Positions 3,023 to 32,188 of a stretch of 64,000 bases of DNA are shown one piece after another. Made by a program: the position numbers and the translations under genes. Numbering within the stretch: the first letter of the stretch is position 1; the number at the start of each line of letters is the position of its first letter. The DNA comes from Bacteroidia bacterium (lineage in GTDB: Bacteria > Bacteroidota > Bacteroidia > 2-12-FULL-35-15). Location of the stretch: assembly GCA_030654175.1 (NCBI GenBank), contig JAURXZ010000006.1, forward strand, positions 186,001 to 250,000. The letters are read 5' to 3'. The notes beneath the pieces were generated by a model. It was not told where the DNA came from and made no database searches. It saw nothing but the letters and a program-made list of their open reading frames with translations.

Positions 3023-3024
3023 TT

Positions 3025-4067: not shown

Positions 4068-6905
4068 TTAATTGAGCTCCACAACCTTTTTTATAACTGA
4101 CTTTCCATCAATCATAATTTTAACAAAGTAAATACCAGCCCTATCTCCATTTGCTTTAGCACTGAATTTATATGTATACTCGGCCGCTATTTGATAAGCA
4201 TTTACAAGTGTTTGCACCTTTTGGCCAGTTGTATTATATACTTCGATACGTATGTCGGATGTTTTATTTAACACATAGCTAAGGGTAGTGTTTTCCGAAT
4301 ACGGGTTTGGAGAAATGGAAAAGGTAACTTCATCAGAAAGTCCCTTATTATTTGACCTTGAAGTACTGATTGCCCTTGTTGGTGAACAACTGATGTTCCA
4401 CACTGTCTCAACATGCCATCGAGCATTGGGGTACGATAAATAATCAGGATCGATAATGGTTAACTGTGAGCCTGAAACACCATTTACCAGTGCCCAATTG
4501 CCGGAACCACTGTTATCCCTCCAAAGATAATAAGCGTTTAACTCCGGGATGGGACTAATTTCGCCTTCTATTTGATAATCATTAAAAGTAAAAGTCCCAC
4601 CAGTTTGATTAATAAAAATAGTATTGTGGTATGCACTCATTGGGCTATAATTTCCACATGTATCTCGCACTTGTAATTTATACCGGTATGTACCGCTATT
4701 TGGATTCCCTGAAAATGGGAAATACAAATTTCTTACTGTATCTACTAGTAAACTCAATGAATCCATTGAAACCGCACCAACTCTTTTGTAGGTATTAGAA
4801 AGTGTTTCACGATATACAATAAATGAATCAACATTGGTATAAGATGCCTTGTCCCAATAAATAATATTATTTGTTGATGTGTTATCTACTGTTACCATGC
4901 AAATGGAAGGCGCTGCGGGTATTGGCAAAACCTGTGTTATCTGGCTATCAATATTTGAGCAGTTATTTCCATCAACATAAGTATACGTGATAGGTTGCAT
5001 ACCGCTTCCAGCGATAGAAGGATTGAAGCTATTATTGCTTATTCCAACGCCACTAAATATACCTCCAGCAGGAAATCCTGTTAACGTTTTTATGGAATCA
5101 TTAAAACATAAAACACTATTCAAACCACTGAAACCAACTATTGGTAATGAATTTATTATTGTATTAACAGGCTTAATATCATCGAGGCATCCACCTGAGG
5201 CTGTAAGTTTTATATAATATGTTCCGCTTGTCGCAATGGTATTGGGAGATAACAAAGTATTTGTAGCACTAGTATCCATCCAGTACGATAATAAGCCAAC
5301 ACCAGTGCTTCCGGCTGTTATGGAATTTGCTGTAAGATCAACAGTATTGGGAAAACATACTGAAGCTGGGTCTGAAACATTTAAAACTGGTTGTTGGAAA
5401 ACGACAACATCAGTTCCTGAAGAGATTTGAGAGCAGCCCATTGAAGGCGTTACAGTAACAGAGTAATTTCCTGAACTTGAAACAACAATGCTTTGTGTGG
5501 TTTCATTGTTTGACCATAAGAAACTGCTTCCTGAACTTGCTGTTAAAGTAACATTGCTACCCTGGCAAAATGTTGTTGTTCCACTTGAAGTAATTGTTGA
5601 TGTTAATGCAGCAATTGTAAATGTACTTCCAGTCGAAAGATTTAAAGAGTTAAATGAGCCGGCTGGAGCGGGCTGTTGGGAAGCTAGATAATTACTAAAG
5701 GCAACCTGCCCGACATTAATGTTATCATAATAATCATATATTTTTGAAGCAATAGCAGCAGTATTTGTAGTATCCCACCAATTATTTTTTGCAGTAACTC
5801 CTGAGCTTGACAAATTTTGTAGATTGAATACTGAATTACTAATAAAATTGCAACTATCCATAACTACCGAATTTGCATTCGATATTTTCATTCCAATAGC
5901 ATTTTCAGAAATAGTTGAATTAGTTATAGATACGTAACCTCCAATCTGGTATCCTGAATAGCCTGTTATTTCGAAAGCAATACCAGTGTTATTGCCCATT
6001 TGCTTTACAGATGCAATTGCTCCGTTTCCAAAAATTATTCCGTTTGAAGCAGTATTATTGATTATACTTTTTGAAATGTTAACGGTAGCAGTGGGCAGGT
6101 TAATGGGAACATTGTCTAGTTCGCTATTTGAAATTGAAAGCGGACCACCTACTGGAGTTCCCCATCCTTCGGTTATTTCAGAAGAAATTATTTTTGAATG
6201 ATTGAAAGAAATATTTGCTCCGCAGCAACCAATCAGTAATGATGAATTGGAAACAGTACTACTATCGAAATTAATTCCATAATTATAGGGATCGGAATTA
6301 ATTATGCAATTGTCAATAAAACTGCTTTTTAAAGTTATTGGCTCAGTGCAGGGGTAAACTCCCCATAGTCTACTCCCAATAATGGTTGTTTTGTTAAGAA
6401 TCAAGGAGGCTGAAGTTTGGTAACCATGAGTTATTACATTACTGTTGCTGAATAAAGCATTATAAATAATTAAAATTCCTGAATTTTTTATTGGATCCTC
6501 ATTCTGTTCACTTTCATTTGCAAGCTGAACTGCAGGCTTTGGACCATAAAATTGAAGGTTATTTAAACTGCTATTACTTAAATTAGCCCCTTTAAACATT
6601 AGCATCGGATTATTGCCACCTGAACATCCATTAAAAAAGATAGGTAGTGTATCAATTCCATTAGCAACTATGGCTCCTTGAATTATAATTTGATAATCTC
6701 CATTGTAAGTAATTTTTACACCGGGTTGAATTGTCAATGTAATCCCCAATGGTATTCCAATATCGCCAATTAAATTGTAAGGACTGCCGCTTATATTCCA
6801 GGTGGTGTTTGAAAAGAATGCTCCGCTTACGTCAGTTTGGGCTTTGGAAGTTTGCAATCCAAAGATAATTAAGAGAAATATAAAAATTGAAAATTGTGAT
6901 TTCAT
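4068..6905 (-). CDS. secreted T9SS cargo, beta-helix and Ig-like domains
   Basis: 945 residues from the ATG at 6905; the upstream ATG (6941) would add 12 charged residues before a clear signal peptide (MKSQFSIFIFLLIIFGLQTSKAQ). Residues ~30-400 contain repeated N-x-S-x-I rungs with many Asn and Ser, typical of a right-handed beta-helix. An Ig-like segment follows (TTFCQGSNVTLTASSG...SNYSVTVTPS type, ~450-520), then FSGVGISNNSFNPSIAGSG-type repeats. The last ~85 residues (SISPNPYSENTTLSYVL ... GIYFVKIMIDGKSVIKKVVEL) form a T9SS type A sorting domain, so the protein should be exported to the cell surface or medium. It lies in the unit between 3238 and 7689. Substrate or ligand unknown. Confidence 0.85.
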   Translation of the reverse strand: MKSQFSIFIFLLIIFGLQTSKAQTDVSGAFFSNTTWNISGSPYNLIGDIGIPLGITLTIQPGVKITYNGDYQIIIQGAIVANGIDTLPIFFNGCSGGNNPMLMFKGANLSNSSLNNLQFYGPKPAVQLANESEQNEDPIKNSGILIIYNALFSNSNVITHGYQTSASLILNKTTIIGSRLWGVYPCTEPITLKSSFIDNCIINSDPYNYGINFDSSTVSNSSLLIGCCGANISFNHSKIISSEITEGWGTPVGGPLSISNSELDNVPINLPTATVNISKSIINNTASNGIIFGNGAIASVKQMGNNTGIAFEITGYSGYQIGGYVSITNSTISENAIGMKISNANSVVMDSCNFISNSVFNLQNLSSSGVTAKNNWWDTTNTAAIASKIYDYYDNINVGQVAFSNYLASQQPAPAGSFNSLNLSTGSTFTIAALTSTITSSGTTTFCQGSNVTLTASSGSSFLWSNNETTQSIVVSSSGNYSVTVTPSMGCSQISSGTDVVVFQQPVLNVSDPASVCFPNTVDLTANSITAGSTGVGLLSYWMDTSATNTLLSPNTIATSGTYYIKLTASGGCLDDIKPVNTIINSLPIVGFSGLNSVLCFNDSIKTLTGFPAGGIFSGVGISNNSFNPSIAGSGMQPITYTYVDGNNCSNIDSQITQVLPIPAAPSICMVTVDNTSTNNIIYWDKASYTNVDSFIVYRETLSNTYKRVGAVSMDSLSLLVDTVRNLYFPFSGNPNSGTYRYKLQVRDTCGNYSPMSAYHNTIFINQTGGTFTFNDYQIEGEISPIPELNAYYLWRDNSGSGNWALVNGVSGSQLTIIDPDYLSYPNARWHVETVWNISCSPTRAISTSRSNNKGLSDEVTFSISPNPYSENTTLSYVLNKTSDIRIEVYNTTGQKVQTLVNAYQIAAEYTYKFSAKANGDRAGIYFVKIMIDGKSVIKKVVELN

Positions 6906-18703: not shown

Positions 18704-20458
18704 ATGAAATCTCTCATCTATTTAAACAAATACTTTTTAAAATACAAATGGCGGCTGTTATTGGGTGTTTTATTCGTTGGTATTTCAAATTATTTCGCAG
18801 TTGATGGTTTTATCTATGCAGGACAAGCGGTTGACTTTATTCGTAACAATATAAACAACCCTGATAAAGATTTTTTAATCAGTGAATTAGTGCGATATGC
18901 CGCAATAATACTTGGATTAGCCCTTTTGAGCGGAGTGTTTTTATTTTTTACCCGACAAACAATTATTGTGATGTCGCGGCTGGTTGAATACGACCTCAAA
19001 AATGAAATTTATGCGAAATATCAACAACTGGATGTGGCTTTTTATAAACGCAACAACACCGGTGATATGATGAACCGTATCAGCGAAGATGTGGGACGTG
19101 TGCGGATGTATATTGGCCCTGCGGTAATGTATATTTTAAATACTCTTTTTCGGTTTATATTAACGATAACGGCAATGCTTCATGTAAATGCCCAACTTAC
19201 CTTGTATGTGCTGATCCCATTACCTTTACTGGCATTTGCAATTTATATCGTTAGTTATACGATCAATAAAAAGGGAACTTTAATTCAAGAAACGTTATCA
19301 GATATCACCACACATGCACAGGAAGCATTTTCCGGTATTCGTGTGTTAAAAACCTTCGGGCGGGAGGATTTTTCGGTACAGAAATTTGAAGAACAGAGTG
19401 CTGAATACCGCAAACGTACTATGGGCCTGGTAAAAACAGAATCACTATTTCAACCCATTATGATATTATTGATCGGTTTGAGTAATATATTTATTGTTTA
19501 TATTGGTGGCAGGCTTGCTATTGAAGGTAAAATAAGTTTTGGAAATATTGTTGAATTTATTTTATACGTAAATGCTTTAACATGGCCGATTGCATCCCTG
19601 GGCTGGGTAACATCACTTATTCAGCGTGCCGCTGTGTCGCAAACAAGGATCAATGAGTTTTTACAAACACAACCTGAAATTTATAATTCAAATGGTATTT
19701 CAGGTAAAATTGAAGGTGACATTGAATTTAAAAATGTAAGCTTTACCTATCCCGATTCAGGTATACAGGCTTTGAATAACATATCATTCAGCATCAAAAA
19801 AGGAAGTTCTGTAGCTATTATTGGTCGCACAGGATCGGGCAAATCAACTATTGCAAATCTCATTTGCAGGTTATATGATGTAAATTCAGGTGAAATAGTG
19901 ATAGACAATAAAAATATTAAAAACATCAATTTATTTGAATTGCGCTCGCAAACCGGCTATGTGCCGCAGGAAGTGTTTTTGTTTTCGGATACTATCTCCA
20001 ACAATATTGGCTTTTCGATGGATCAGAAAGATAATATAGCAATAGAAGAAGCCGCAAAAAACGCTGCGATTTATGATAATATTATGGATTTCCCTTTAAA
20101 ATTTGAAACCATTGTTGGTGAACGCGGAATCACACTATCAGGTGGACAAAAACAACGTATTTCCATTGCCCGGGCGATTATTAAACAACCACAATTATTG
20201 ATCTTTGATGATTGCCTTTCGGCTATCGACACCGAAACAGAAGAAAAAATCCTCAACAATTTAAAAAAACTAATGGCAGGTAAAACCTCTGTTATCATCA
20301 GTCACCGCGTATCCTCCGTTAAAAATTCAGATACTATAATTGTTCTTGACCAGGGACAAATCATTGAACAGGGAAATCATCGTGAATTGATAAACAAAAA
20401 AGGAAGCTATTACGAGCTTTTTAAAATGCAACAATTGGAAGAAGAGTTGATGGCCTAG
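18704..20458 (+). CDS. ABC transporter half-exporter (membrane and ATPase domains fused)
   Basis: 584 residues. Six membrane helices in ~1-310 followed by the ATP-binding cassette. Walker A GRTGSGKST is near residues 374-382, the Q-loop is TGYVPQEVFLFS, the signature LSGGQKQR is near 480 and the H-loop is ISHRVSSV. Walker B is LLIFDDCLSAID: aspartate stands where the catalytic glutamate usually is, as in MdlA/YheI-type half transporters that pair with a canonical partner. No partner gene is adjacent, so homodimer or distant partner is open. Probably exports a lipid, peptide or drug. Single-gene unit. Confidence 0.9.
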   Translation: MKSLIYLNKYFLKYKWRLLLGVLFVGISNYFAVDGFIYAGQAVDFIRNNINNPDKDFLISELVRYAAIILGLALLSGVFLFFTRQTIIVMSRLVEYDLKNEIYAKYQQLDVAFYKRNNTGDMMNRISEDVGRVRMYIGPAVMYILNTLFRFILTITAMLHVNAQLTLYVLIPLPLLAFAIYIVSYTINKKGTLIQETLSDITTHAQEAFSGIRVLKTFGREDFSVQKFEEQSAEYRKRTMGLVKTESLFQPIMILLIGLSNIFIVYIGGRLAIEGKISFGNIVEFILYVNALTWPIASLGWVTSLIQRAAVSQTRINEFLQTQPEIYNSNGISGKIEGDIEFKNVSFTYPDSGIQALNNISFSIKKGSSVAIIGRTGSGKSTIANLICRLYDVNSGEIVIDNKNIKNINLFELRSQTGYVPQEVFLFSDTISNNIGFSMDQKDNIAIEEAAKNAAIYDNIMDFPLKFETIVGERGITLSGGQKQRISIARAIIKQPQLLIFDDCLSAIDTETEEKILNNLKKLMAGKTSVIISHRVSSVKNSDTIIVLDQGQIIEQGNHRELINKKGSYYELFKMQQLEEELMA

Positions 20459-20750
20459 AAGATAAGAACATAAACAGGCTGCAATATTCAGCTGTAAAAT
20501 GGTATTAAATACCACAAAAAACTTACCCAATAAGCAGATGCGGGATGGAAACCCCAATATTGGAGTTCTTTATAATAAATCCCCAAAAATCGCAACAATT
20601 AAACTATTCATACGCTTATTTAAGCAGTTCGTAGACAAAAACTCATAGTTAATATTAATGAAAAGTTATTAACAAGCCTTGTTTTTTGTTTTTATATTTT
20701 AAATATTTGCCAAAGAATTTATATAAAAACCAACAATTTCAGTTATTAGG

Positions 20751-21128
20751 ATGGAAGAAGGATTTGAAAAAAACGGAGTAGAAAGAGAAGAAATATTCTC
20801 TAAAGCTGTAAGAGCGGGGAAAAGAACCTATTTCTTTGATGTAAAAAGCACCAGGGGAAATGACTATTACCTAACAATTACTGAAAGCAAAAAGCGTTTT
20901 GGCGATGATGGTAAGTTCTTTTATGAAAAACATAAGTTGTTTTTGTACAAAGAAGATTTTGAAAAATTTACGGAAGGTTTTGCTGAGGTAATCGAGCACA
21001 TTAAATCAATTTCTCCTATTGAAGTTGCTTCCTCTGAAACTGCTACACAGGAAGAAGTATCAACATCTGAATCACCAAAAACTGACAACAGTTTTTCTGA
21101 TGTGAATTTTGAAGATTTAGATAAATAG
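20751..21128 (+). CDS. DUF3276 / PUR-alpha-like nucleic-acid-binding protein
   Basis: 125 residues. The first ~85 residues (EIFSKAVRAGKRTYFFDVKSTRGNDYYLTITESKKRF ... FYEKHKLFLYKEDFEKFTEGF) match the small PUR-type domain (DUF3276) conserved in Bacteroidota and spirochaetes, which binds single-stranded DNA or RNA; the bacterial role is not settled. The C-terminal ~40 residues are an acidic, Ser/Thr-rich low-complexity tail. Monocistronic: an upstream AT-rich gap of 292 bp and a terminator at 21200-21231. Confidence 0.88.
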   Translation: MEEGFEKNGVEREEIFSKAVRAGKRTYFFDVKSTRGNDYYLTITESKKRFGDDGKFFYEKHKLFLYKEDFEKFTEGFAEVIEHIKSISPIEVASSETATQEEVSTSESPKTDNSFSDVNFEDLDK

Positions 21129-21199
21129 AAATTTCTTTTTATTCTTTCCATTAGTCTTTCCTAAGGACACTATTATTAATCAGTGATGCTAAAATCACA

Positions 21200-21231
21200 C
21201 AAAACAATGGCTTTTAAAGCTATTGTTTTTT
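21200..21231 (+). terminator. rho-independent terminator after DUF3276 gene
   Basis: AACAATGGCTTT pairs with AAAGCTATTGTT (one mismatch) and is followed by TTTTTCTGTTT on the plus strand, about 72 bp after the stop codon. Confidence 0.75.
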
Positions 21232-21323
21232 CTGTTTCCGGGTAACTTATACCCTTCCGGCAAGACCGCTATAACTCTTCTTGCAAGTAATTCCCAACAA
21301 ATTTTATTTTTTTTTTAGAAAAC

Positions 21324-21373
21324 TTGCTTATTTAAATAAAACAATCTACTTTTGTAAGCGAACACTCACTTAC
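21324..21373 (+). promoter_or_regulatory. promoter and palindromic operator of the tetR gene
   Basis: TTG (21324-21326), 20 bp, then TACTTTTG (21347-21354), an exact TAnnTTTG -7 element. Beginning at its last base is the 20-bp imperfect palindrome GTAAGCGAACACTCACTTAC (21354-21373), 7 of 10 base pairs symmetric, placed over the expected transcription start. That is where a TetR-type repressor would block its own gene. A shorter relative of the palindrome lies at the start of the tolC gene (24966-24982). Confidence 0.65.
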
Positions 21374-21503
21374 TTTAATTCAAACAAAACAAAAAAACAA
21401 AAACTGAATCATTCCATATTTACTGATAATAGGTCTTCCATGACTTTTTAAGTTGCAGTTTAAAATAGTATTCAGGTAGTCATTTTTTACAAAAAAAATA
21501 ACG

Positions 21504-22106
21504 ATGGAAAATAAAAAATTCACAGAACGACAAATAGAAATCATAGAAGCTGCCACAAAAAGGATTGATGAACATGGTATCCAGGATTTAACGATAAAAA
21601 CACTTTCCTCTGATTTAAATCTATCGGAAGCCGCATTGTACCGTCACTTTAAAAGCAAAAATGAAATTTTACTTGGTTTACTTACCTATTTTATTGAAAA
21701 TATGAAAAAGAGGCTTGAAGTTATCCTCTCCAAAACCAATACAAGTCCATCAGAACTATTGAAAGAAATTTTCGAATCCCAATTAAATACATTTGTTAAA
21801 AAGCCTTCAATTGTAAGTGTTATTTTTTCGGAAAGTATTTTTCAATTTAATAAGGAATTATCAAATACAGTTTCTTCTATGATACAAGTAAATCAAAATC
21901 ATATCGAAAACATTATTAAAAAAGGCCAGGCGAATGGGACTTTCACTAAAGCTATTGGTGTTTCTACAACAGCAACAATTATTATGGGAGGCATGAGAAT
22001 TACAGTTCTAAAATGGAAATTAACAGGCCATAAATCTGATCTGATAAAAGACGGTAGCAAAGTATTAAATGGAATATTAAAATTGATAGAGGTTAAGCAA
22101 AAATAA
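21504..22106 (+). CDS. TetR/AcrR-family repressor
   Basis: 200 residues. The N-terminal helix-turn-helix is clear: RQIEIIEAATKRIDEHGIQDLTIKTLSSDLNLSEAALYRHFKSKNEILLGLL, the standard TetR pattern with recognition helix EAALYRHF. The C-terminal ~140 residues form the ligand/dimer domain, which cannot be assigned a ligand by eye. It heads a run of same-strand genes (membrane protein 8 bp downstream, lipoprotein, CoA-disulfide reductase, then the efflux operon), and its probable operator occurs both before itself and at the efflux operon. Confidence 0.93.
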   Translation: MENKKFTERQIEIIEAATKRIDEHGIQDLTIKTLSSDLNLSEAALYRHFKSKNEILLGLLTYFIENMKKRLEVILSKTNTSPSELLKEIFESQLNTFVKKPSIVSVIFSESIFQFNKELSNTVSSMIQVNQNHIENIIKKGQANGTFTKAIGVSTTATIIMGGMRITVLKWKLTGHKSDLIKDGSKVLNGILKLIEVKQK

Positions 22107-22114
22107 CAAACCCA

Positions 22115-22507
22115 ATGAAAACCATTATTTTAAGATCATCGGCAGTTTTAATAACTCTATTTGCAATGGTAACTCTTTTCATGAGTACCTCGGTACTATT
22201 TGATCTATTCGGAATACGAGAGAAAGAAGGTAATTATGTATTATTTGTTGTCCTCTCCAATTTTATTGCCGGATTCCTTTACCTGATTGCAGCTTATGGT
22301 TTATTTAGCGAAAAGAAATGGTCCACAAAATTGATCTTAATTACAACTTTGATTCTTATCGTAAGTTTTGCAGGTTTATTAATTCACGCGAATACAGGAG
22401 GCATTTATGAGCAGAAAACAATCACAGCCATGATTTCACGCATCGCCATTACAGGTGCATTTGCATCAATTTCTTGGTTTTTTATAACACAAAAAAAATA
22501 CAATTAA
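22115..22507 (+). CDS. small integral membrane protein, four helices
   Basis: 130 residues with four hydrophobic segments (about 5-32, 40-64, 72-92, 100-123) and little else. The start lies 8 bp after the tetR stop, so the two are cotranscribed. I do not recognise the family for certain; small four-helix proteins beside TetR regulators in Bacteroidota are usually uncharacterised. The next gene starts 36 bp downstream, after a run of A-rich spacer. Confidence 0.75.
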   Translation: MKTIILRSSAVLITLFAMVTLFMSTSVLFDLFGIREKEGNYVLFVVLSNFIAGFLYLIAAYGLFSEKKWSTKLILITTLILIVSFAGLLIHANTGGIYEQKTITAMISRIAITGAFASISWFFITQKKYN

Positions 22508-22542
22508 TACGAAATAAAAAAACAAAAAAACAAAAAAAAACA

Positions 22543-23034
22543 ATGAAAAAACAAATAATAATAACTGTTGTGGCATGCATAAGCATGGCTTACGGTTGCA
22601 GTGATCCAATTACGAAAGAAAACAATGAAACCGTAAAGGCCCAGCAAGAGCCCATATCAGCGTCCACGGAAACCGAACACCATCATAATGAAGGCGCTTC
22701 CATTGAATTAAATAATGGTCATAAGTGGAAAATAGAAGTTGAAATGATGAAGTACATTACAAATATGCAATCAGATGTAAAGCTGTTTTCTGAAGCAAAC
22801 AATAAAAATCTGAACGACTACGCTATACTTGGAGCCGGTCTGCAGAAAAACGTTGATCTGTTAACCTCAAATTGCACCATGAAAGGAAAGGCTCATGACG
22901 AGTTGCACAAGTGGCTTTTACCTTATATTGATATGGTGGATAAATTTAATAAATCAAAAAATGAAAGTGATAATCAGGCTATATTTAAAGAAATAGAAAA
23001 CTCTTTTGTTCTATTTAATCAGTACTTTGAATAA
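22543..23034 (+). CDS. hypothetical lipoprotein, His-rich N-terminus
   Basis: I start at the ATG at 22543, which begins a lipoprotein signal (MKKQIIITVVACISMAYGCS); the longer frame from 22474 would overlap the preceding gene and add only Lys/Gln-rich sequence from the poly-A spacer. About 163 residues. After the lipid Cys come a low-complexity linker and ETEHHHNEG, a possible metal-binding patch, then LNNGHKWKIEVEMMKYITNM and a helical domain with two further His/Cys positions (SNCTMKGKAHDELHKWL). It belongs to a periplasmic family of unknown function that I have seen beside sulfur or metal genes. Fits the TetR operon. Confidence 0.7.
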   Translation: MKKQIIITVVACISMAYGCSDPITKENNETVKAQQEPISASTETEHHHNEGASIELNNGHKWKIEVEMMKYITNMQSDVKLFSEANNKNLNDYAILGAGLQKNVDLLTSNCTMKGKAHDELHKWLLPYIDMVDKFNKSKNESDNQAIFKEIENSFVLFNQYFE

Positions 23035-23138
23035 TACAAGAATGCACATTATGATATTTACTTTGTAATGTAACCTATGTTACTGATTATAAGTTCTGAT
23101 ATGAGTACGTTTGTTCTTAAATCAATATAACCATAAAA

Positions 23139-24824
23139 ATGAAATATATAATAATAGGAGCAGTAGCAGGCGGAGCCAGCACTGCAGCAAGACTTAGAAG
23201 ATTAGACGAGCATGCCGAAATTATAATGTTCGAAAAAGGAGAATATATATCTTATGCCAATTGTGGCCTGCCTTATTATATAGGTGATGTAATTAAAGAC
23301 CGAAACGCTTTATTGATTCAAACAGCATCCGCATTTAATAAAAGATTTAACATTGATGTAAGGACAATGACTGAAGTACTAGCCATTAACCCCGCATCAA
23401 AAACAGTAACAGCTAAAAACCAAATTACAGGAAAGGAATATGAGGAGAACTATGATAAATTAGTACTATCACCCGGTGCTGATCCTATTCGTCCTCCTTT
23501 GCCCGGCATAACTAATGAAGGAATATTCACACTCCGAAATGTGAATGATACCGATCATATTAAAGAATTTGTACAACAAAAAAATGTAAAGAAAGCTGTA
23601 ATTATCGGGGCCGGATTTATAGGGCTGGAAATGGCCGAAAATTTACATAGCCTAGGGATGGATATTACGGTTATAGAAATGGGAAACCAGATATTAGCAC
23701 CATTAGATTTTCCGATTGCGGCTATTGTTCAACAACACATACGCTCCAAAGGTGTTAATTTGCTTCTCAATTCTGCTGTTACCGCATTCGAGAAAAACAA
23801 TTCTAAACTAAATGTTTTATTAAAAAGTGGAGATGAAATAACTGCCGATATAGTGATCCTCTCAATTGGTGTAAAACCTGATACCCGATTGCCAATCAAA
23901 GCCGGACTTAAAATCGGAGATGCAAAAGGAATATGGGTTAATGAATATTTACAAACATCCGACCCGGATATTTATGCAGTTGGAGATGCGATAGAATTTA
24001 AAAATCCAATTACAAATCAATCCATGAATACATACCTTGCCGGCCCGGCAAACAAGCAAGGGCGTATATGTGCTAATAACATTGTATCGGGTAATGTTCA
24101 AAAATATAACGGTGCTATCAATACCGCTATTGTCAAGGTGTTTGATATGACTGTTGCCACCGCAGGAACTGCCTCGAAGCACCTTACGAAAGCAGAAATA
24201 AAACATATTGTATCCACAACATACAGCGGATCACATGCAGGTTATTATCCGGGCGCGCAGGAAATGAGTATTCAAATTGCTTTCTCTCCCAAAGATGGTC
24301 GCTTATTAAGTGCACAAATAGCGGGTTATGATGGTGTAGATAAACGAATAGATGTATTGTCGTCCGTTATAAAAAGAAACAGCAACATTTATGAATTAAC
24401 AGAATTTGAGCACGCATACGCCCCTCCTTACTCATCGGCTAAAGATCCGGTAAATATGGTTGGATTTGTTGCAGAGAATATTTTACAAGAGAAATTAAAA
24501 GTTTTCTACTGGGACCAGGTTGCCACTATTTCAGATAGCGATATATTATTAGACATCAGAAGTAAAGAGGAATTTGACAAAGGCTTCATTCCAAATGCAA
24601 TTAATATTCCAATAGATGAACTAAGAGACAGGATAAGTGAGTTGGATCTAAACAAAAACATATATGTTTATTGTCTTGGCGGAGTGAGAGGATATTTGGC
24701 TCAACAGATATTAAAACAAAACGGATACAAAAAGATTTTAAACTTATCGGGGGGGTATCAATTATGGGATATCTGTAATAAAGAAATTGATCAAACCAAA
24801 ACAGCTGAAATAACAATTGCATGA
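23139..24824 (+). CDS. CoA-disulfide-reductase-like flavoprotein fused to rhodanese
   Basis: 561 residues. FAD-binding GAVAGGASTAARLRRL at the N-terminus, single redox cysteine at C42 in SYANCGLPYYIG, NAD(P)H-binding VIIGAGFIGLEMAENL near 155, a second FAD motif YAVGDAIEF near 280, then the dimerisation domain. Residues ~460-550 are a rhodanese domain with active-site loop CLGGVRG near 512. Proteins of this CoADR-Rhd type reduce CoA disulfide, CoA persulfide or polysulfide. With the TetR gene and the His-rich lipoprotein it suggests a response to reactive sulfur or another thiol stress, which is an inference. It is closed by a strong terminator. Confidence 0.9.
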   Translation: MKYIIIGAVAGGASTAARLRRLDEHAEIIMFEKGEYISYANCGLPYYIGDVIKDRNALLIQTASAFNKRFNIDVRTMTEVLAINPASKTVTAKNQITGKEYEENYDKLVLSPGADPIRPPLPGITNEGIFTLRNVNDTDHIKEFVQQKNVKKAVIIGAGFIGLEMAENLHSLGMDITVIEMGNQILAPLDFPIAAIVQQHIRSKGVNLLLNSAVTAFEKNNSKLNVLLKSGDEITADIVILSIGVKPDTRLPIKAGLKIGDAKGIWVNEYLQTSDPDIYAVGDAIEFKNPITNQSMNTYLAGPANKQGRICANNIVSGNVQKYNGAINTAIVKVFDMTVATAGTASKHLTKAEIKHIVSTTYSGSHAGYYPGAQEMSIQIAFSPKDGRLLSAQIAGYDGVDKRIDVLSSVIKRNSNIYELTEFEHAYAPPYSSAKDPVNMVGFVAENILQEKLKVFYWDQVATISDSDILLDIRSKEEFDKGFIPNAINIPIDELRDRISELDLNKNIYVYCLGGVRGYLAQQILKQNGYKKILNLSGGYQLWDICNKEIDQTKTAEITIA

Positions 24825-24877
24825 TTTAATCAAATGAATACCCAGAGGCAGAGCCTCGAGGTATTCATTTGATTAAA
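24825..24877 (+). terminator. strong nested hairpin terminator
   Basis: Perfect 18-bp arms TTTAATCAAATGAATACC (24825-24842) and GGTATTCATTTGATTAAA (24860-24877), with an inner GAGGC/GCCTC stem in the loop. It begins right at the stop codon of the flavoprotein. A scrambled relative of the same sequence lies at 31376-31553 after the efflux operon, so it is also a repeat family. Confidence 0.8.
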
Positions 24878-24959
24878 CCTTTTACCATAAAATCGATTCT
24901 AAATACAAGGATGAATAAACAACGAAAACTTAATTAATTCTAAAAAAATTTGCCCAATC

Positions 24960-26294
24960 ATGTTAGTAAACGCTCACTTAACAAAATTAAAATCCATATT
25001 GGTTTTCACAATATTGATTTTTACATTAAATGCAAAAGCTCAGAACCTATCGCTGAAAAATTGTATTGATTCCGCACTGCTGCATAATAAAACATTACAA
25101 ATTGCACAAAGCGATATAGAGATTTCTGATGAGAGGAACAAAGAAGCTAAGGGTGGTTTAATACCTAAATTATATGGAAATGCAGATTATCGATATTATA
25201 CCGATCTGCCCTATCAGTTGTTACCGGCCTCAGTTTTTAACGGTCCTGCCGGGGTATATAAAGAAGCGCAATTTGGTGTGCCGCATAACTTAAATGCAAA
25301 CCTAACTATAGATGTGCCTTTGTATAATCCTCAGGCAATTGGAGCAATTACAGTTTCCAAAAGAGCAAAGGAATTAAGTCAGATACAATTTCAACAAACC
25401 GAAGAACAGGTAATTTTTGAAATATCCAATTTGTATTACAATGCACAAATCGTATCCAATCAAATTTTGTTTATAAAAAACAGCATTAGCAATAGCGAAA
25501 AATTGCACAGCAATATCAAATTGCTTTATTCACAACAAATGGCTAAAGGAACAGATGTTGACAAAATTAAACTTCAGCAAAGTCAACTTAACACACAATT
25601 AAGTAAAGCTAATACACAATATCAACAACTATTAAATTTATTAAAAATCCAATTGGGAATTGCAGTATCCCAATCAATTGCAATTGAAGAAACCTTTACC
25701 CCAATTTCGGAAGAAGCAAAGTACTCCACTAAACCAACCTCCGACATTACATTATCAAACACTAAGCAATTGCTTTTAAAATCAGAATTGCAAACATTAA
25801 AATTATCACATCTCCCCTCTTTCTCGCTTTATGGTTCTTATGGAACAACAGGTTATGGAAACTATAGTGGAGCAAATGATTTTTTCAAATTTTATCCAAT
25901 TGGATTTGCAGGTGTAAAAATGACATGGCTAATATTTTCAGGGACTTCATTGGAACACAAAATATTCCAAAAGAAAGAAGAGATAAAACAAAATTCACTT
26001 CGTGTGGAATTATTAAATGAGAAACAAAACGTTCAAATTGAAAACACACAAATGCAATATGACGTTGCGGTTTCCAATCTGTCCAATTCAAAATCTCAAT
26101 TGGAATTAGCAGAAACTATTTATTCAAAAACTCTTATTCAGCAAAAGGAAGGTGTTGCCACATTAACAGATATTTTACTTTCAGACAATGCACAAAAAGA
26201 AGCACAACAGAATTATTTGTCGGCTTTAGTAGATTTAATGAAGGCCGATCTGGAACTCAAAAAAGTATCAGGAAATTTATCATTTAAAAATTAA
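24960..26294 (+). CDS. TolC-family outer-membrane efflux protein
   Basis: 444 residues. Signal peptide region SILVFTILIFTLNAKAQN, then the TolC pattern of two repeated long-helix segments: LSLKNCIDSALLHNKTLQIAQSDIEISDERNKEAKGGLIPKL and, in the second half, GYGNYSGANDFFKFYPIGFAGVKMTWLIFSG with the closing helices ETIYSKTLIQQKEGVATLTDILLSDNAQKEAQQNYL. It forms the trimeric outer-membrane channel for the HlyD/RND pair downstream (38 bp gap to the adaptor). The ATG at 24960 gives eight residues in front of the signal peptide; the operator-like sequence lies in these codons, so the start is not fully certain. Confidence 0.9.
   Translation: MLVNAHLTKLKSILVFTILIFTLNAKAQNLSLKNCIDSALLHNKTLQIAQSDIEISDERNKEAKGGLIPKLYGNADYRYYTDLPYQLLPASVFNGPAGVYKEAQFGVPHNLNANLTIDVPLYNPQAIGAITVSKRAKELSQIQFQQTEEQVIFEISNLYYNAQIVSNQILFIKNSISNSEKLHSNIKLLYSQQMAKGTDVDKIKLQQSQLNTQLSKANTQYQQLLNLLKIQLGIAVSQSIAIEETFTPISEEAKYSTKPTSDITLSNTKQLLLKSELQTLKLSHLPSFSLYGSYGTTGYGNYSGANDFFKFYPIGFAGVKMTWLIFSGTSLEHKIFQKKEEIKQNSLRVELLNEKQNVQIENTQMQYDVAVSNLSNSKSQLELAETIYSKTLIQQKEGVATLTDILLSDNAQKEAQQNYLSALVDLMKADLELKKVSGNLSFKN
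24966..24982 (+). promoter_or_regulatory. operator-like sequence at the start of tolC
   Basis: GTAAACGCTCACTTAAC resembles the tetR palindrome (GTAAGCG ... CTCACTTAC) with a 3-4 bp shorter centre. It lies 4 bp inside the reading frame that begins at 24960. Either the repressor site overlaps the 5' codons, or translation begins further downstream. No exact TAnnTTTG element is found just upstream. Confidence 0.4.
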
Positions 26295-26331
26295 CAGTTT
26301 GAATTATCAATAAAGTAAATAAAAATAAATT

Positions 26332-27384
26332 ATGAAAAAGATATTATACATCATTATTCCATTGGCATTAATTGCAATCGTGGTAATTAAATTGAAAACT
26401 AATAAGGAGATCGTAAAAGATAAAGTTTATCAATATGATAAAGAGGAAGCAATCAACGTTATTGCAGACACGATCCAGATTGAATTTATTGGTGCTGAAA
26501 TTCCACTTTCAGGGACATTCGAGCCTAACAAGGAAACTAAATTAAGTGCCGAGATACAAGGTAAGATCAATGAAGTTTTGGTTGATCTGGGAAGCAACGT
26601 AACAAAAGGTCAAACGTTAATTCAGTTAGATAATTCATTATTGAAACTGCAATTGCAAACCGCAGAAGTCCAGATTGAAGGACTTGAGGCTGATGTAAAA
26701 CGTTTCACAATTTTAGCTAATGCTGACGCCATACAAGGTGTTCAATTGGAGAAAGCTGAATTAGGTTTAAAATCGGCTAAAGTACAAAGCACCACTATAC
26801 GCGAACAAATTAATAAAACATCAATCAAGGCTCCCTTTAACGGAGTTGTTACTGCCAAACTCAGTGAGGAGGGAGCATTTGCAGCACCCGGAGTACCATT
26901 GCTTCAAATAACAGATATTGCCAATTTGAAATTTACCGTAAATGTTTCGGAAAATGATCTGGGCCTTTTTCAATTAAATCAACCATTCGCAATTATTGCA
27001 GATGCGTATCCTGATATTTTATTATCCGGAAAAATAACTATGATAGGCAGCAAAGCTAATATGGGTAATAGTTTCCCTGTTCAGCTAATTGTTAGCAACA
27101 CATCAGATCTAAAAATAAAATCCGGAATGTTTGGCAAAGTGAATTTTAAAAGTGACAAACAAAAATCGGGAATTGTAATTCCAGCTTCAGCAGTTGCAGG
27201 CACAGCAAGCCTACCACGGATTTATAAAGTAGAAAATGGAAAGGCTGTTTTACATGATATAACTATTTCTCAACGGATAAAAAATAAAGTTGTTGTATCA
27301 AGTGGATTAAAAGAAGGTGATATAATTATAACAAATGGATTTATTAATCTTTTTGAAGGCGCAAATGTTTCAATTAAAAATTAA
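26332..27384 (+). CDS. RND efflux periplasmic adaptor (HlyD/AcrA family)
   Basis: 350 residues. N-terminal membrane anchor (ILYIIIPLALIAIVVIKL). Then the biotinyl-lipoyl-like hairpin: LSAEIQGKINEVLVDLGSNVTKGQTLIQLDNSLLKLQLQTAEV, the coiled coil, and the second half TSIKAPFNGVVTAKLSEEGAFAAPGVPLLQITDIANLKFTVNVSE, followed by the beta-barrel and membrane-proximal domains. It links the inner-membrane pump to TolC. The last codons and stop lie inside an 18-bp inverted repeat that flanks the following four-helix-bundle gene, so the original C-terminus may have been changed by that insertion. Confidence 0.92.
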   Translation: MKKILYIIIPLALIAIVVIKLKTNKEIVKDKVYQYDKEEAINVIADTIQIEFIGAEIPLSGTFEPNKETKLSAEIQGKINEVLVDLGSNVTKGQTLIQLDNSLLKLQLQTAEVQIEGLEADVKRFTILANADAIQGVQLEKAELGLKSAKVQSTTIREQINKTSIKAPFNGVVTAKLSEEGAFAAPGVPLLQITDIANLKFTVNVSENDLGLFQLNQPFAIIADAYPDILLSGKITMIGSKANMGNSFPVQLIVSNTSDLKIKSGMFGKVNFKSDKQKSGIVIPASAVAGTASLPRIYKVENGKAVLHDITISQRIKNKVVVSSGLKEGDIIITNGFINLFEGANVSIKN

Positions 27385-27781
27385 GAATTAAAAATTTAGA
27401 ATTTAAAAATTTAGTATGAAAGAGAATATTATACAACAAAAGAGTTTTGCATTTGCAATTAGAATTGTGAATGCTTATAAATATTTACAAGCAGATAAAA
27501 AAGAGTTTGTATTATCTAAACAATTATTAAGAAGCGGTACATCTATTGGTGCAAATGTTGAAGAAGCAATAGGTGGTCAATCTAAAAAAGATTTCATCGC
27601 CAAAATTTCCATTTCATATAAAGAAGCGCGCGAAACAATGTATTGGGTCAAATTATTAAAAGCCACTTTATATCTTGAGGAAAAGGAAGCCGACAGCATT
27701 ATGAATGATGCTGAAGAATTATGTAAAATTCTCTCTTCAATTCTCGTTTCATCAAAACAAAACAATTCTTAATTTTTAATT
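27372..27781 (+). mobile_element. four-helix-bundle (IVS-type) mobile unit with inverted repeats
   Basis: Exact 18-bp inverted repeats AATTAAAAATTAAGAATT (27372-27389) and its reverse complement (27764-27781) bound a unit of 410 bp with one gene. The repeats are extended by further imperfect AAGAATTA copies on both sides. The unit sits between the adaptor and pump genes of an operon that is normally contiguous, with the adaptor stop codon in the left repeat and the pump ATG 22 bp after the right repeat. Units with this type of protein are known as intervening sequences in 23S rRNA genes and as dispersed copies in Bacteroidota. Confidence 0.7.
27416..27772 (+). CDS. four helix bundle protein (S23/IVS family)
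   Basis: 118 residues. The family pattern is plain: KSFAFAIRIVNAYKYL, VLSKQLLRSGTSIGANVEEAIGGQSKKDFIAKISISYKEARETMYWVKLL, and EEAEELCKILSSIL-type C-terminal helices. These proteins form pentameric helical bundles; the related Avd protein takes part in diversity-generating retroelements, but no reverse transcriptase is near. Cytoplasmic. It is transcribed in the sense of the efflux operon and would be co-expressed with it. No role in efflux is implied; the flanking inverted repeats suggest mobility. Confidence 0.88.
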   Translation: MKENIIQQKSFAFAIRIVNAYKYLQADKKEFVLSKQLLRSGTSIGANVEEAIGGQSKKDFIAKISISYKEARETMYWVKLLKATLYLEEKEADSIMNDAEELCKILSSILVSSKQNNS

Positions 27782-27803
27782 CCTAATTCTTAATTGATTA
27801 AAA

Positions 27804-30800
27804 ATGAATATTACAGAAATATCAATAAAACGCCCTTCGCTGATAATCGTTCTTTTCAGTGTGCTAACATTATTAGGATTTATCGGATATAAAAATCTGA
27901 GTTATGAACTCATGCCGGATTTTAATCAACCTGTTGTGGTCATTAAAACGGTGTATCCGGGGGCAGAACCAAATGAAGTAGAAACTTCGGTTTCGCGAAA
28001 AATAGAAGATGCCTTATCAAATCTGGAAGGAGTAGATTATTTGGTAACAAAATCTTTACCCAACGCATCCATCATTATTGCCAACCTGAAATACGGAACA
28101 GATCTGGATAAAACAATGCAGGATGCGCAACGCTATATTGATAATATCCGTAAAGATCTACCGCAGGATATATTAAGTCCGGTAATGAGTAAGGTTTCGC
28201 CAAATGATTTACCCATCATGTCTATCAGTGCAACAAGCAACCTGGCGGGAACGGAATTTTATCAAAAAATGAAAGATGAATATCTTCCGCAAATCCAACA
28301 AATTAAAGGGGTAGCAGAGTTAACTATTTTGGGTGGTGAAGAAAGAGAGATACAAGTAAAAGTAAATCAGGACAAGCTAAAACTATATAAAATTTCGCTG
28401 TACCAGGTTGTAGAAGCCATTAACCGGTCGGGTTTAGACTTGCCTGCCGGTAAAGTGCAAACCGATCAGGAGAATAATTCTGTTCGTTTAACCGGTAAGT
28501 TTACAACCATTGATGACATAAAAAATGTTCAGGTGGCAATGCCTGTTGCCGGAAGTCCGGTATATGTAAAGGATGTAGCCAATGTGATGGATGGGATTAA
28601 GGAAACAACTTCTATCAGCCGTTACAATGGCAAGAATGGCATTGGACTGTTATTAAAAAAACAGGGAGATGCCAATGCCGTGAATGTTTCAAAAATGGTT
28701 CGTGAAAAATTCAAAACCATCGAACAGCAAAATGTTGATTCACAAGTGGAATTTATTATCGCTGACGACAGCACCGATAAGACAATAGCTGCAGTTGATT
28801 CAGTTATTTTTGATTTAATATTAGCTGTAATATTGGTTTCATTGGTAATGCTTTTATTTCTGCGAAGTTTAAGAAACTCAATAATTGTATTGATAGCAAT
28901 CCCTACCTCTCTGGTTACAGCCTTTGCAGTGATGTGGCTTTTGGGATACACACTAAATTTGATGACCTTGCTTGCCATGTCTTTAATTATCGGGATACTG
29001 GTGGATGATGCAACGGTTGTGTTGGAAAACATTCAACGACATCTGGATATGGGAAAAGGAAAACGAACGGCCTCAATGGAAGGACGTATGGAAATTGGCT
29101 TTTCGGCTATATCAATCACATTGGTGGACGTGGTAGTATTTTTACCCATTTTATTTTTACAGGTTTTTGTTGCCGATATGCTTAAACAATTTTCGGTAGT
29201 TGTTGTAACTTCCACACTCACCAGTTTATTGGTTGGCTTTACACTCACCCCGTGGTTGGCTTCACGAATTGGAAAGAAAGAAGATTTACAACCTACCAAC
29301 TTTTTTAATCGTTTCCTTCTTGGATTTGAACATCAATTAGAAAAATTCACCAATTGGTATGGCAAGCAACTAGAATGGGTGCTGAGTCATAAACTGATTT
29401 TTACAGGCATTGTGATATTGCTATTTGCATTGACCTTAGGCGTAATGAAACAAGGTATCATTGGTAAAGAACTTATTTCTACCGGTGATCAGGGGAAATT
29501 CAGATTGAATATAGAGTTTGATAAATCTATTTCTATCCACCAAAATAATCTCATCGCTCAAAAAATTGAAACCTATATAATCAAACAATCCGAAGTTTCA
29601 ACTGTATTTAGCAATATTGGTGGACCAAGCACAGGGATTGGTAGTTTGGGTGTAGGCTCGGCCAACAAAACCGAATTTACTATTCAATTGAAAACGGCCA
29701 AAGAACGCAATGAACAACCAACAGAAAAGTTTATGCAAGAACTCCGGGAAGAACTAAAAATGAAATTTCCGGGTATAAATTATTCAATGGCTGCATTGGG
29801 TTTAATTCCAAAGTCTGCACCAATAGAAATTACATTAAGTGGAAGTAATTTGGATTTGGTAATGAAAACAGGTAACGGACTAAAATCAATTATTGAAAAA
29901 ATACCGGGTTCAGACAATGTGCGTTTGTCGGTGGAACAAGGCAGTCCTGAATACAAAATAGTTCCCGACAAGGACAAGATGCAGCGCTTAGGTTTAACCA
30001 CCGCTTATGTAGGCCTAAATTTAAGAACAGCACTTACAGGTAATGATGATGCAACATTGACTGAAAACGGAACAGAATATCCTGTAAGGATATGGTTTGA
30101 TGCTTACGATCGGCAAAACTATGAAGATGTGCAACATCTATCTATTGTTAACCCCATGGGTATGCCTGTTGAAGTTTCACAATTTGCAAGCGTAGAACGG
30201 GATAATTCACCATCCTTATTAGAAAGAAAAGATCGTCAACCGGCAGTAACACTCACCTCGGATGCATTAGGCAGACCTTCAGGGACAGTTGCCGGAGATG
30301 TTGTGGCGTATGTTGATAAGCACCCTTTGCCCGAAGGCATACAAATGACCTGGGGTAGTGATATCAAAAGGCAAAATGATAGTTTTGGTGCATTAGGTTC
30401 TGTATTACTTATTTCGTTTCTCCTCATCTATTTAATTATGGTGGCTCTGTATGACAGCTTCGTTTATCCTTTTGTGGTTTTATTTTCAATCCCTGTTGCT
30501 GCAATAGGTGCATTTTTAGCTTTGAATTTATCACTGAATAATATAAGCTTATTTGCTTTACTTGGTTTGATCATGCTAATGGGCTTAGTAGTAAAAAATG
30601 CAATTTTAATTGTGGACTTTACCAACCAGCTAAAAGCAGAAGGTAAACATTTTAAGGAGGCGTTAATCATTGCCGGGAAAGGCCGTATGCGGCCCATTTT
30701 AATGACAACTATTGCTATGATAATAGGCATGTTACCCATTGCATTGGCCAAGGGGACTGCAAGTGAATGGAAAAACGGTTTGGCCTGGGTGATTATCGGA

Positions 30801-30902
30801 GGGCTTTTTTCATCATTGATATTAACTGTTTATTTAGTACCAATGGTTTATTATTTAGTGGACAGATTAAAAGAAAAAATTATAAATAAAAAAAATAATT
30901 AA
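27804..30902 (+). CDS. RND multidrug/solute efflux pump (HAE-type inner-membrane subunit)
   Basis: 1,032 residues, normal length. The N-terminus MNITEISIKRPSLIIVLFSVLTLLGFIGYKNL is the family start. The porter domain begins VYPGAEPNEVETSVSRKIEDALSNLEGVD, the proton-relay region contains LAMSLIIGILVDDATVVLENIQRHL, and the second half repeats the layout with LLGLIMLMGLVVKNAILIVDFTNQLKAEG and RMRPILMTTIAMIIGMLPIAL. Two Asp (DD in GILVDDA) stand at the usual transport positions. It uses proton influx to expel substrates through the adaptor and TolC. Substrate unknown. Confidence 0.94.
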   Translation: MNITEISIKRPSLIIVLFSVLTLLGFIGYKNLSYELMPDFNQPVVVIKTVYPGAEPNEVETSVSRKIEDALSNLEGVDYLVTKSLPNASIIIANLKYGTDLDKTMQDAQRYIDNIRKDLPQDILSPVMSKVSPNDLPIMSISATSNLAGTEFYQKMKDEYLPQIQQIKGVAELTILGGEEREIQVKVNQDKLKLYKISLYQVVEAINRSGLDLPAGKVQTDQENNSVRLTGKFTTIDDIKNVQVAMPVAGSPVYVKDVANVMDGIKETTSISRYNGKNGIGLLLKKQGDANAVNVSKMVREKFKTIEQQNVDSQVEFIIADDSTDKTIAAVDSVIFDLILAVILVSLVMLLFLRSLRNSIIVLIAIPTSLVTAFAVMWLLGYTLNLMTLLAMSLIIGILVDDATVVLENIQRHLDMGKGKRTASMEGRMEIGFSAISITLVDVVVFLPILFLQVFVADMLKQFSVVVVTSTLTSLLVGFTLTPWLASRIGKKEDLQPTNFFNRFLLGFEHQLEKFTNWYGKQLEWVLSHKLIFTGIVILLFALTLGVMKQGIIGKELISTGDQGKFRLNIEFDKSISIHQNNLIAQKIETYIIKQSEVSTVFSNIGGPSTGIGSLGVGSANKTEFTIQLKTAKERNEQPTEKFMQELREELKMKFPGINYSMAALGLIPKSAPIEITLSGSNLDLVMKTGNGLKSIIEKIPGSDNVRLSVEQGSPEYKIVPDKDKMQRLGLTTAYVGLNLRTALTGNDDATLTENGTEYPVRIWFDAYDRQNYEDVQHLSIVNPMGMPVEVSQFASVERDNSPSLLERKDRQPAVTLTSDALGRPSGTVAGDVVAYVDKHPLPEGIQMTWGSDIKRQNDSFGALGSVLLISFLLIYLIMVALYDSFVYPFVVLFSIPVAAIGAFLALNLSLNNISLFALLGLIMLMGLVVKNAILIVDFTNQLKAEGKHFKEALIIAGKGRMRPILMTTIAMIIGMLPIALAKGTASEWKNGLAWVIIGGLFSSLILTVYLVPMVYYLVDRLKEKIINKKNN

Positions 30903-30903
30903 T

Positions 30904-31350
30904 ATGAAACAGTTAAGTTCATTCATATTGGCCGGTATAACAATATTGACATTATTTTCATTTATACAAAAAGGAGAAACATATTCTTTAACCATAGAAG
31001 TAAAAGATCTAAGAAATTCAACCGGAGCAGTTCAATTTGCTTTGTATAATAAAGATGGAACCATCCCGGATGAAGATTATAAACAATACTGTAAAATATT
31101 AAAAGGAAAAATACAAAAAGGGATCGCTAAAGTAACATTTACCAGTCTTCCGCATGGTAAGTACGCGGTAAATATTCTCCATGACGAAAACGAAAATGGA
31201 GAAATAGACAAAGGTTTTATTTTACCAATAGAGGGAATTGGTTTTTCAAACTTTCAATCTATTGGATTTAGCAATCGTCCAAATTTTTCAAAAGCTAGTT
31301 TTGAGTTAAAAGAAAACAAAACAATAAATGTTAAGGTGATTTATATGTGA
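30904..31350 (+). CDS. DUF2141 secreted protein
   Basis: 148 residues. Signal peptide (LSSFILAGITILTLFSFIQKG), then the DUF2141 pattern: YSLTIEVKDLRNSTGAVQFALYNKDGTIP, KVTFTSLPHGKYAVNILHDENENGEIDKGFILPIEGIGFSN. This is a small periplasmic or secreted beta-sandwich of unknown function, common in Bacteroidota. It starts 1 bp after the RND stop codon, so it is translated with the pump and may be an accessory to it. Confidence 0.88.
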   Translation: MKQLSSFILAGITILTLFSFIQKGETYSLTIEVKDLRNSTGAVQFALYNKDGTIPDEDYKQYCKILKGKIQKGIAKVTFTSLPHGKYAVNILHDENENGEIDKGFILPIEGIGFSNFQSIGFSNRPNFSKASFELKENKTINVKVIYM

Positions 31351-31375
31351 AGTTAAGATCTGAACAAACGAACCT

Positions 31376-31553
31376 TTTGATAATGAATACGTCCGAGGCA
31401 GAGCCTCGATATATCAGTGCAGTATTTGCCACAGATTACACAGATTCACACAGATAAATTTGTATTAATTTCTAAAATCTGAGGCAAAGGACTAACAACA
31501 GACTGCTTATGCACATCCCAAGGCTGAGCCTCTGGGAATTCATCAGATTAAAT
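31376..31553 (+). repeat. diverged copy of the 24825 hairpin after the efflux operon
   Basis: This gap of 325 bp has no gene. It begins with GATAATGAATACGTC and GAGGCAGAGCCTC, as in the terminator at 24825, then ~100 bp of unrelated sequence, then CCCAAGGCTGAGCCTCTGGG and GAATTCATCAGATTAAAT, which resembles the right arm. It looks like the same hairpin with an insertion in its loop. The last 110 bp before 31676 are extremely AT-rich and may contain the promoter of the next gene. Confidence 0.5.
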
Positions 31554-31675
31554 TAACAATTTGAGTTTTGTACCTAATATTTTATAAAAAATTAAATAAA
31601 AAATCATTACGACTTTTTTTAAATAATATTAAATATATTTATAATCGTTTAAAAAATATTTTTGACACCTTTTAA

Positions 31676-32188
31676 ATGGATTACAAACAGCAACTTCTCA
31701 AGGAACATTCCCGTGCTAATACCGATGCAATCGCAAAGGCAATAGGAAACAATGCTGTTGAATTTAAAAAAATAATTGACATTATTTATAACGAAAAAGC
31801 CCCATTACCACAGCGTGCTTCCTGGTTATTATCAACTATAAATGATAAACATCCTGATCTGCTGCTGCCTTATATTTCTCTTTTTATATCCAGCATAAAA
31901 AAAATAAAAATTGATGGGATCAAAAGAAATATGCTTGCTGTATTGGCTTCGAATAAGATTTCTAAAAACCTCCAGGGTAAATTAGTAAATCTCTGTTTTG
32001 ATTTTTTACTTTCATCTGATGAAACAGTAGCTGTAAAAGTTTATGCTATGCAAGCCATTGCAAATATTGCCAAACATCACCCTGAATTAGAAAACGAATT
32101 AAAAGCTGCTATTGAAGATCAATTGCCAAAAACTACTGCCGCATTTCATGCACGTGCAAAACGGGTTTTGAAGGGTTTTAGTTTTTAA
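31676..32188 (+). CDS. HEAT-repeat-like helical protein
   Basis: 170 residues, entirely helical by pattern, with repeated amphipathic helices (QRASWLLSTINDKHPDLLLPYISLFISSIKK; VKVYAMQAIANIAKHHPELENELKAAIEDQL), typical of HEAT/ARM-type solenoids. No signal peptide. Known relatives are small cytoplasmic proteins of unknown role in Bacteroidota. Convergent with the DUF1801 gene 17 bp downstream on the other strand. Confidence 0.78.
   Translation: MDYKQQLLKEHSRANTDAIAKAIGNNAVEFKKIIDIIYNEKAPLPQRASWLLSTINDKHPDLLLPYISLFISSIKKIKIDGIKRNMLAVLASNKISKNLQGKLVNLCFDFLLSSDETVAVKVYAMQAIANIAKHHPELENELKAAIEDQLPKTTAAFHARAKRVLKGFSF

Follow-up and report, generated by a model that had tools for sequence, protein, structure and literature searches.

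A TetR-family efflux cluster of a Bacteroidia bacterium with two conserved operators and a possible transcriptional roadblock at the first pump gene

In a stretch of 64,000 nucleotides (nt) from a Bacteroidia bacterium (contig JAURXZ010000006.1 of assembly GCA_030654175.1), hereafter the window, a gene for a TetR-family repressor is followed by genes for a membrane protein, a His-rich lipoprotein and a flavoprotein reductase, and then by a complete tripartite efflux pump (OEP, HlyD and ACR_tran genes, 24960-30902; Table 1). Two related palindromes lie in this cluster, site 1 at the tetR promoter and site 2 in the first codons of tolC. The TetR_N domain (39.5 bits against a cut-off of 24), the adjacent pump and a conserved operator that overlaps the promoter identify, at the level of sequence, a TetR-family autorepressor of an RND operon. 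The closest NCBIfam families, FadR of Bacillus (66.4 of 200 bits) and SlmA (60.5 of 120 bits), are both missed by the protein. We consider it highly probable that both palindromes are functional operators. For the whole reading, in which an efflux operon with two operators is repressed by its own TetR-subfamily regulator, with a roadblock at the second operator and the reductase gene outside the switch, we see the balance as about even.

Table 1. Features of the tetR-pump cluster, in coordinates of the window
Feature	Position	Strand	Remarks
Candidate -33 element TTG of the tetR promoter	21324..21326	+	20 nt upstream of the -7 box; weak element
-7 box TACTTTTG (TAnnTTTG) of the tetR promoter	21347..21354	+	inferred start ~21359
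Operator site 1, GTAAGCGAACACTCACTTAC	21354..21373	.	conserved at tetR orthologs
tetR-family repressor gene	21504..22106	+	200 amino acids (aa); TetR_N, TetR_C_4 YsiA-like
130-aa membrane protein	22115..22507	+	membrane by sequence reading; in 21/108 loci
His-rich lipoprotein	22543..23034	+	invariant C111, M113, H118, H122; predicted four-helix bundle; in 40/108 loci
Crp/Fnr-like palindrome TGTAACCTATGTTACT	23069..23084	.	centre -41.5 from inferred reductase start
-7 box TACGTTTG of the reductase's own promoter	23106..23113	+	inferred start 23118
CoA-disulfide reductase-like flavoprotein with rhodanese domain	23139..24824	+	very probably a passenger in the cluster
Strong hairpin after the reductase gene	24825..24877	.	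25-nt arms, 92% complementary; without a proper U run
A/T tract AAAAAAATTT	24942..24951	+	tract ends 11 positions ahead of the first base of site 2
tolC, outer membrane efflux protein	24960..26294	+	444 aa
Operator site 2, GTTAGTAAACGCTCACTTAA, in tolC first codons	24962..24981	.	
hlyD, RND periplasmic adaptor	26332..27384	+	
S23-like four-helix protein, between adaptor and pump genes	27416..27772	+	its cluster in 9/108 loci
RND permease	27804..30902	+	multidrug type by best NCBIfam scores, all under cut-off
DUF2141 protein, likely final module gene	30904..31350	+	its cluster in 11/108 loci

Site 1 is an imperfect palindrome in which, by eye, 7 of 10 base pairs match. As the initial annotation had described, its first base is the final G of the tetR -7 box. 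In the promoters of Flavobacterium johnsoniae, for which a -33/-7 consensus has been reported, this G of the -7 box stands at -5 (PMC6847099), and by that rule the tetR transcript starts at about 21359 and not, as first proposed, near 21361. Site 2 is identical to site 1 at 15 of 20 positions (by eye), and its first G is the G of the tolC ATG (24960-24962), so the variant site that had been placed at the first codons of tolC was correctly located.

TetR relatives were drawn from 99 related genomes, from 395 genomes (61 with a match) and from the best 80 of 576 matches in a wider collection. With 6 duplicates removed and 14 of the best 80 (L109-L122) excluded, the analysed set comprised 108 distinct TetR-family loci, for which L001-L030 were swapped for longer stretches where used. 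Bacteroidota, Ignavibacteria, Cloacimonadota and others are represented among the collected loci, the wider collection being limited to its best 80 of 576 matches. The operator matrix was symmetric and was trained near tetR from thirteen seed sites, six of them site-2 examples; matrix scores and the site-2 scan pattern derive from these loci and are therefore not independent of them, and since the loci are related by descent, the counts given below are not counts of independent events. A matrix match at 23937, within the reductase gene of the window (score 15.4), was taken as chance and removed from the promoter, site-pair and tract counts.

The matrix search placed site 1 at 94 of the 108 TetR loci, and TAnnTTTG stands exactly before it in 57 of 93 site-1 sequences. 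Alongside site 1, a second, downstream site is present in 51 of the 108 loci, at a spacing of 615-5446 base pairs (bp). Counting the window, 34 loci have site 2 at the start of tolC, where the ATG stands at -2, -5 or -8 from the first base of the operator, and 32 of these 34 have site 1 too. The 34 were chosen by those ATG offsets plus a frame of at least 340 aa, so that a common frame is partly built in; three more tolC loci have a site at other offsets, with the frame kept in L068 and L081 and different in L173, and 23 other second sites outside the 34 were tallied separately. Across the 34 loci the encoded TolC start is mostly (K)LVN(T/I)HK. The Leu codon over site 2 is TTA in 33 of 34, whereas TTA makes up 21% of Leu codons later in these genes. 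In all 34 the fourth codon has T as its third base, whether it encodes Ile, Thr, Ala or Val, and the third base of the fifth codon is C, against a 39% share of CAC among His codons later in the genes. From this codon choice, which is partly built in by the selection of the sites, the constraint at the tolC start seems to lie on the DNA.

Sites of this kind are concentrated at first pump genes. An operator score of at least 14 near the start was found for 37 of 76 first pump genes, compared with 14 of 760 other forward genes; 13 of those 14 open the tetR operon, and their sites are therefore site 1, while one (L158) is unclassified. By the type of first pump gene, a site was near the start in 30/46 for TolC, 7/15 for MMPL and 0/15 for HlyD or RND. 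When 395 genomes were scanned with the site-2 pattern, independently of TetR, 7 matches in 7 genomes were obtained, compared with 1 for the reversed control. All 7 adjoin the same TetR family, three of them (G402, G128 and G159) at known TetR loci and four at additional ones.

Within the window's own genome (5.1 Mb), a pattern built from both sites occurs exactly in 2 places, those same two, and this result is hence circular; with up to 2 mismatches there were 6 matches, 3 of them at the two sites, while the reversed pattern gave 12. One further copy of the identical 14-mer core (C32:114276) lies in a coding frame (hsdR by sequence reading); it was set aside, as were the two-mismatch matches L192-L194, which are coding or at control level (L192 and L193 were inspected individually). 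Sequence search of the own genome alone is thus weak evidence for the sites, not separable from chance. That both sites are real is argued instead by their conservation across the TetR-family loci, the comparison among related genomes that had been proposed as a check; the missing conservation that had been named as a refutation was not observed. At one locus beside the same TetR family (L040), a cytochrome c gene (L040:11837-12268) has three possible start codons, and the operator letters are also found at one of these.

Site 2 is accompanied by an upstream A/T tract. This is either AAAAAAATTT or a run of T, and its last T stands about 11 positions upstream of the operator; it takes the form A7T3 in most Bacteroidota and of a T run in others. 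Among first TolC/MMPL genes, the tract was found at 37 of the 42 that have site 2, compared with 3 of the 24 that lack it. Two loci of the latter group, L043 and L170, were scored as lacking site 2 despite having it, as the frame begins further upstream there, and omitting them gives 3/22; the stretch searched was 20 nt with site 2 and 26 nt without, a difference that works against the finding. TTT at -13 to -11 is present in 26/34 tolC loci and 15/23 other second sites, compared with 9/93 site-1 sequences, and the tract stands at 27 of 51 tolC starts, compared with 40 of 649 other genes and 4 of 103 HlyD/RND genes. Its start is at -20 of the operator in 24 of the 33 cases scoring 9 or 10 of 10, with the ATG at -2 (13) or -5 (11). 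A role of the tract in translation only is disfavoured, since its place is fixed to the operator and not to the ATG, and it is also found where the ATG lies about 30 nt downstream.

The canonical signals that mark a promoter at site 1 are nearly absent from site 2. TAnnTTTG within 45 nt before site 2 was found in none of the 34 tolC loci and in 1 of the 23 other second sites, and among eight chosen loci (seven of the Ignavibacteria type, plus L098) TTGACA stands before site 1 in all 8 but before site 2 in 1. That these elements stand at site 1 but almost never at site 2 speaks for an action of site 2 on elongation. Roadblocks by DNA-bound repressors or controllers within transcribed regions are known (PMC6237814, PMC4132739, PMC3711431, PMC10310618), and an operator in a coding region conserved in 34 tolC loci, across which we infer transcription, is a candidate for another. 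TetR on site 1 would block transcription initiation, and TetR on site 2 would halt escaped RNA polymerase that is elongating into the pump genes. The products of tetR, the membrane protein gene and the lipoprotein gene would then leak at a low level, with the pump shut until an inducer frees both sites. With the polymerase halted by the bound repressor, the growing end of its RNA would be close to the A/T tract, which could cause pausing, slipping back or release. A roadblock at site 2 is in our view plausible, if slightly short of an even prospect. Only tentatively would we go further and propose a widespread class of ligand-gated roadblock terminators, in which TetR at the first codons acts with a positioned A/T tract, mostly without a hairpin, to give two levels of expression per operon.

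The initial annotation had placed a strong terminator between the tetR and tolC transcripts. A strong hairpin is indeed present after the reductase gene (the RNA fold of 24818-24900 is -31.5 kcal/mol), but CCTTTTACC follows it in place of a U run, and a scan of 20400-31700, which gave 6 terminator-like sites, did not pick it. The argument for separate transcripts depends on this hairpin, which is not a canonical intrinsic terminator. An RNA hairpin directly before site 2 is rare: in 57 site-2 sequences, each compared with 100 single-base (not dinucleotide) shuffles over -60 to -11, a stretch upstream of which the window's own hairpin lies, the mean z was -0.17 and 3 were below -2. A partial copy of the 24825-24877 hairpin stands at 31382-31409, shortly after the DUF2141 gene, and is possibly a repeated terminator-like element.

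Several observations weigh against the two-operator reading with its roadblock at site 2, and some of them favour a separate weak promoter there, the main rival. At 39 of 76 first pump genes, including all 15 with HlyD or RND first, there is no site at the threshold; the window's site 2, at 18.3, scores under most other sites; and the fixed codon positions are partly built in, as matrix score and frame selected the sites. In F. johnsoniae, adenines 12-13 nt before the ATG favour translation (PMC6847099), so the A part of the tract may serve tolC translation. In the window, a strong hairpin separates the tetR transcript from tolC, and in L182, L174 and L060 hairpins directly precede site 2. Should these act as terminators, transcription of the genes beyond them would require a promoter close to site 2, and a roadblock by itself does not supply one. 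(L174 was first read as having tolC behind an opposite-strand gene, a frame that looks like the reverse of an OsmC-like gene, and that argument was dropped.) The AAnnTTTG of the tract differs from a -7 box by one base. On the promoter account, the AAAATTTG part of the tract is itself the -7 box and tolC transcription starts at or just before the ATG, directly repressed by TetR. The one-base distance of AAAAWWWTTT from TAnnTTTG, with a G following in 47% of the 34, agrees with this, as do the hairpins that precede tolC in the window and at L182 and L174; with that G at -5, the start would be the ATG itself (ATG at -5) or 3 nt upstream of it (ATG at -2). For an ATG at -8, however, the predicted start would fall downstream of the ATG. 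Moreover, the first T of TAnnTTTG is described as near-invariant in F. johnsoniae (PMC6847099), yet the box is found at none of the 34 tolC loci; column counts show no clear -33 signal; and of the eight loci that have TTGACA at site 1, only 1 has it at site 2 as well, their tract being mostly a run of T. We regard a local promoter as rather unlikely.

TetR oligomers could also bridge the two operators, 0.6-5.4 kb apart, into a DNA loop, with the A/T tract as a helpful bend. Both sites are present together in 51 loci, 615-5446 bp apart, and the nearest solved relatives include SlmA, which oligomerises on DNA. The site spacing is very variable, however, and TetR dimers seldom loop DNA, which makes looping improbable to our minds.

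The initial annotation had joined reductase, lipoprotein and RND pump into one regulon, with TetR coupling CoA-disulfide/rhodanese chemistry to efflux in a suggested response to reactive sulfur or a thiol-reactive compound. The TetR and pump part, with two conserved operators, is well supported; the thiol or reactive-sulfur link is not. What favours the link is the adjacency of the reductase gene in the window, together with sulfur-related genes at a few other TetR loci (SQR-like 3, persulfide-dioxygenase-like 3, rhodanese 3, partly by sequence reading). Against it, no reductase ortholog was found within -4 to +10 kb of tetR at any of the other 107 loci, 27 of which have less than 6 kb after tetR; at L034 a 77-residue rhodanese match stands alone near tetR. 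Among the 99 relatives, 13 carry reductase orthologs at an E-value of 1e-60, the own genome included. G003, G034 and G071, all draft assemblies, have TetR and reductase on different contigs, and G003 is the clear case, since G034 and G071 have their tetR on contigs that break off inside tetR and tolC.

The region upstream of the reductase gene likewise speaks against this link. A palindrome like TGTAACnnnnGTTACA (14-16 of 16 positions), centred at -41.5 from the start inferred from TAnnTTTG, was found in 9 of the 13 reductase sequences, the window included; 4 are without it, and some of the nine are near-identical, so that these are not nine independent cases. The strict TetR operator pattern was found within 170 nt upstream of the reductase in none of the 13. 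A centre at -41.5 is the usual position for class II Crp/Fnr activators. In the own genome, Crp/Fnr-like palindromes with at most 1 mismatch number 44, against 21 for the reversed control, per strand. The gene is thus probably under its own promoter and a Crp/Fnr-type activator, to judge from these motifs. By NCBIfam the protein scores under the cut-off of TIGR03385 (481.7 of 578.8) and above that of PRK13512 (395.9 of 394). Given that no ortholog was found at the other 107 TetR loci, 27 of them short, and given this conserved promoter of its own, we are fairly sure that the reductase gene is a passenger and not part of the TetR switch, and a TetR response coupling it to efflux strikes us as very improbable. 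A sulfur-related inducer of TetR may remain conceivable, given the few loci with sulfur genes.

The lipoprotein recurs more widely. C111, M113, H118 and H122 are invariant in 34 aligned sequences (33 of the 37 listed plus the window row; L171, L177, L183 and L185 were unaligned), and the family has no confident Pfam or NCBIfam match. Its structure model (mean predicted local distance difference test, pLDDT, 81.1; predicted template modelling score, pTM, 0.66) becomes confident near residue 51 and has its four helices within 66-161. The folds that come closest are cytochrome b562-type bundles, though not significantly so (best Foldseek E 0.11), and VIA-align Z values of 11.1-12.5 over 87-102 residues (50 rows listed) are in a range common for helical bundles. 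The invariant Cys, Met, His and His could possibly form a ligand set for copper or heme in this predicted fold. The 130-aa membrane protein matched neither Pfam nor NCBIfam at the thresholds applied. Other recurrent neighbours are cupin (18 loci), MMPL pumps (15), DUF302 (9), P-type ATPase (9), cytochrome b561 (8), multicopper oxidase (6), cytochrome c (6) and OsmC (5), where the P-type ATPase and OsmC labels come from sequence reading; they hint at redox or metal-linked stress. Hcp-like, RIC-like or Rrf2-like genes, so named by sequence reading, lie near TetR at L079, L094, L097, L180 and L099, which suggests a link to nitric oxide in some lineages.

If site 2 halts elongation, one repressor would grade expression along its operon, such that sensors and periplasmic proteins leak and the costly pump does not. 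By fixing the first residues of the TolC signal peptide, the operator would be a case of regulatory DNA shaping protein sequence. The position-fixed tract bears on whether bacteria use sequence-tuned roadblock termination, a mode known with T-rich elements from RNA polymerase I (Pol I). The reductase beside TetR, in turn, corrects a tempting inference of function from adjacency.

Among the papers listed in literature searches, none dealt with this two-operator arrangement to judge by titles and abstract openings, most subscription journals being outside the literature covered. TetR-repressed RND operons are known from the AcrR, TtgR and BmeR type. The cluster is like these in that tetR stands beside a tripartite RND pump with an operator over its own promoter, and unlike them in its second conserved operator at the first pump gene, its A/T tract and its additional lipoprotein and membrane protein genes. 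SlmA and FadR of Bacillus are the closest TetR subfamilies by NCBIfam score and by solved structures, yet the protein remains far under either family cut-off. As in the account of C.Kpn2I (PMC6237814), for which an elongation roadblock was demonstrated, the binding site lies in coding sequence downstream of the promoter; the C.Kpn2I site controls its own gene, whereas the putative site here would split an operon and hold back the pump. LacI at O3 blocking lacI (PMC3711431) and engineered LacI roadblocks (PMC4132739) are cases in which an operator-bound repressor stops polymerase, as we propose here, but an A/T tract such as the present one is not described in the available parts of those reports. 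A possible likeness for the tract is the Reb1/Nsi1 terminator of Pol I, where the polymerase comes to a halt within T-rich sequence some 15 bp short of the roadblock site (PMC12366685), a distance similar to that found here; that terminator needs an RNA hairpin, whereas most of the present loci have none close by and their tract is often A7T3.

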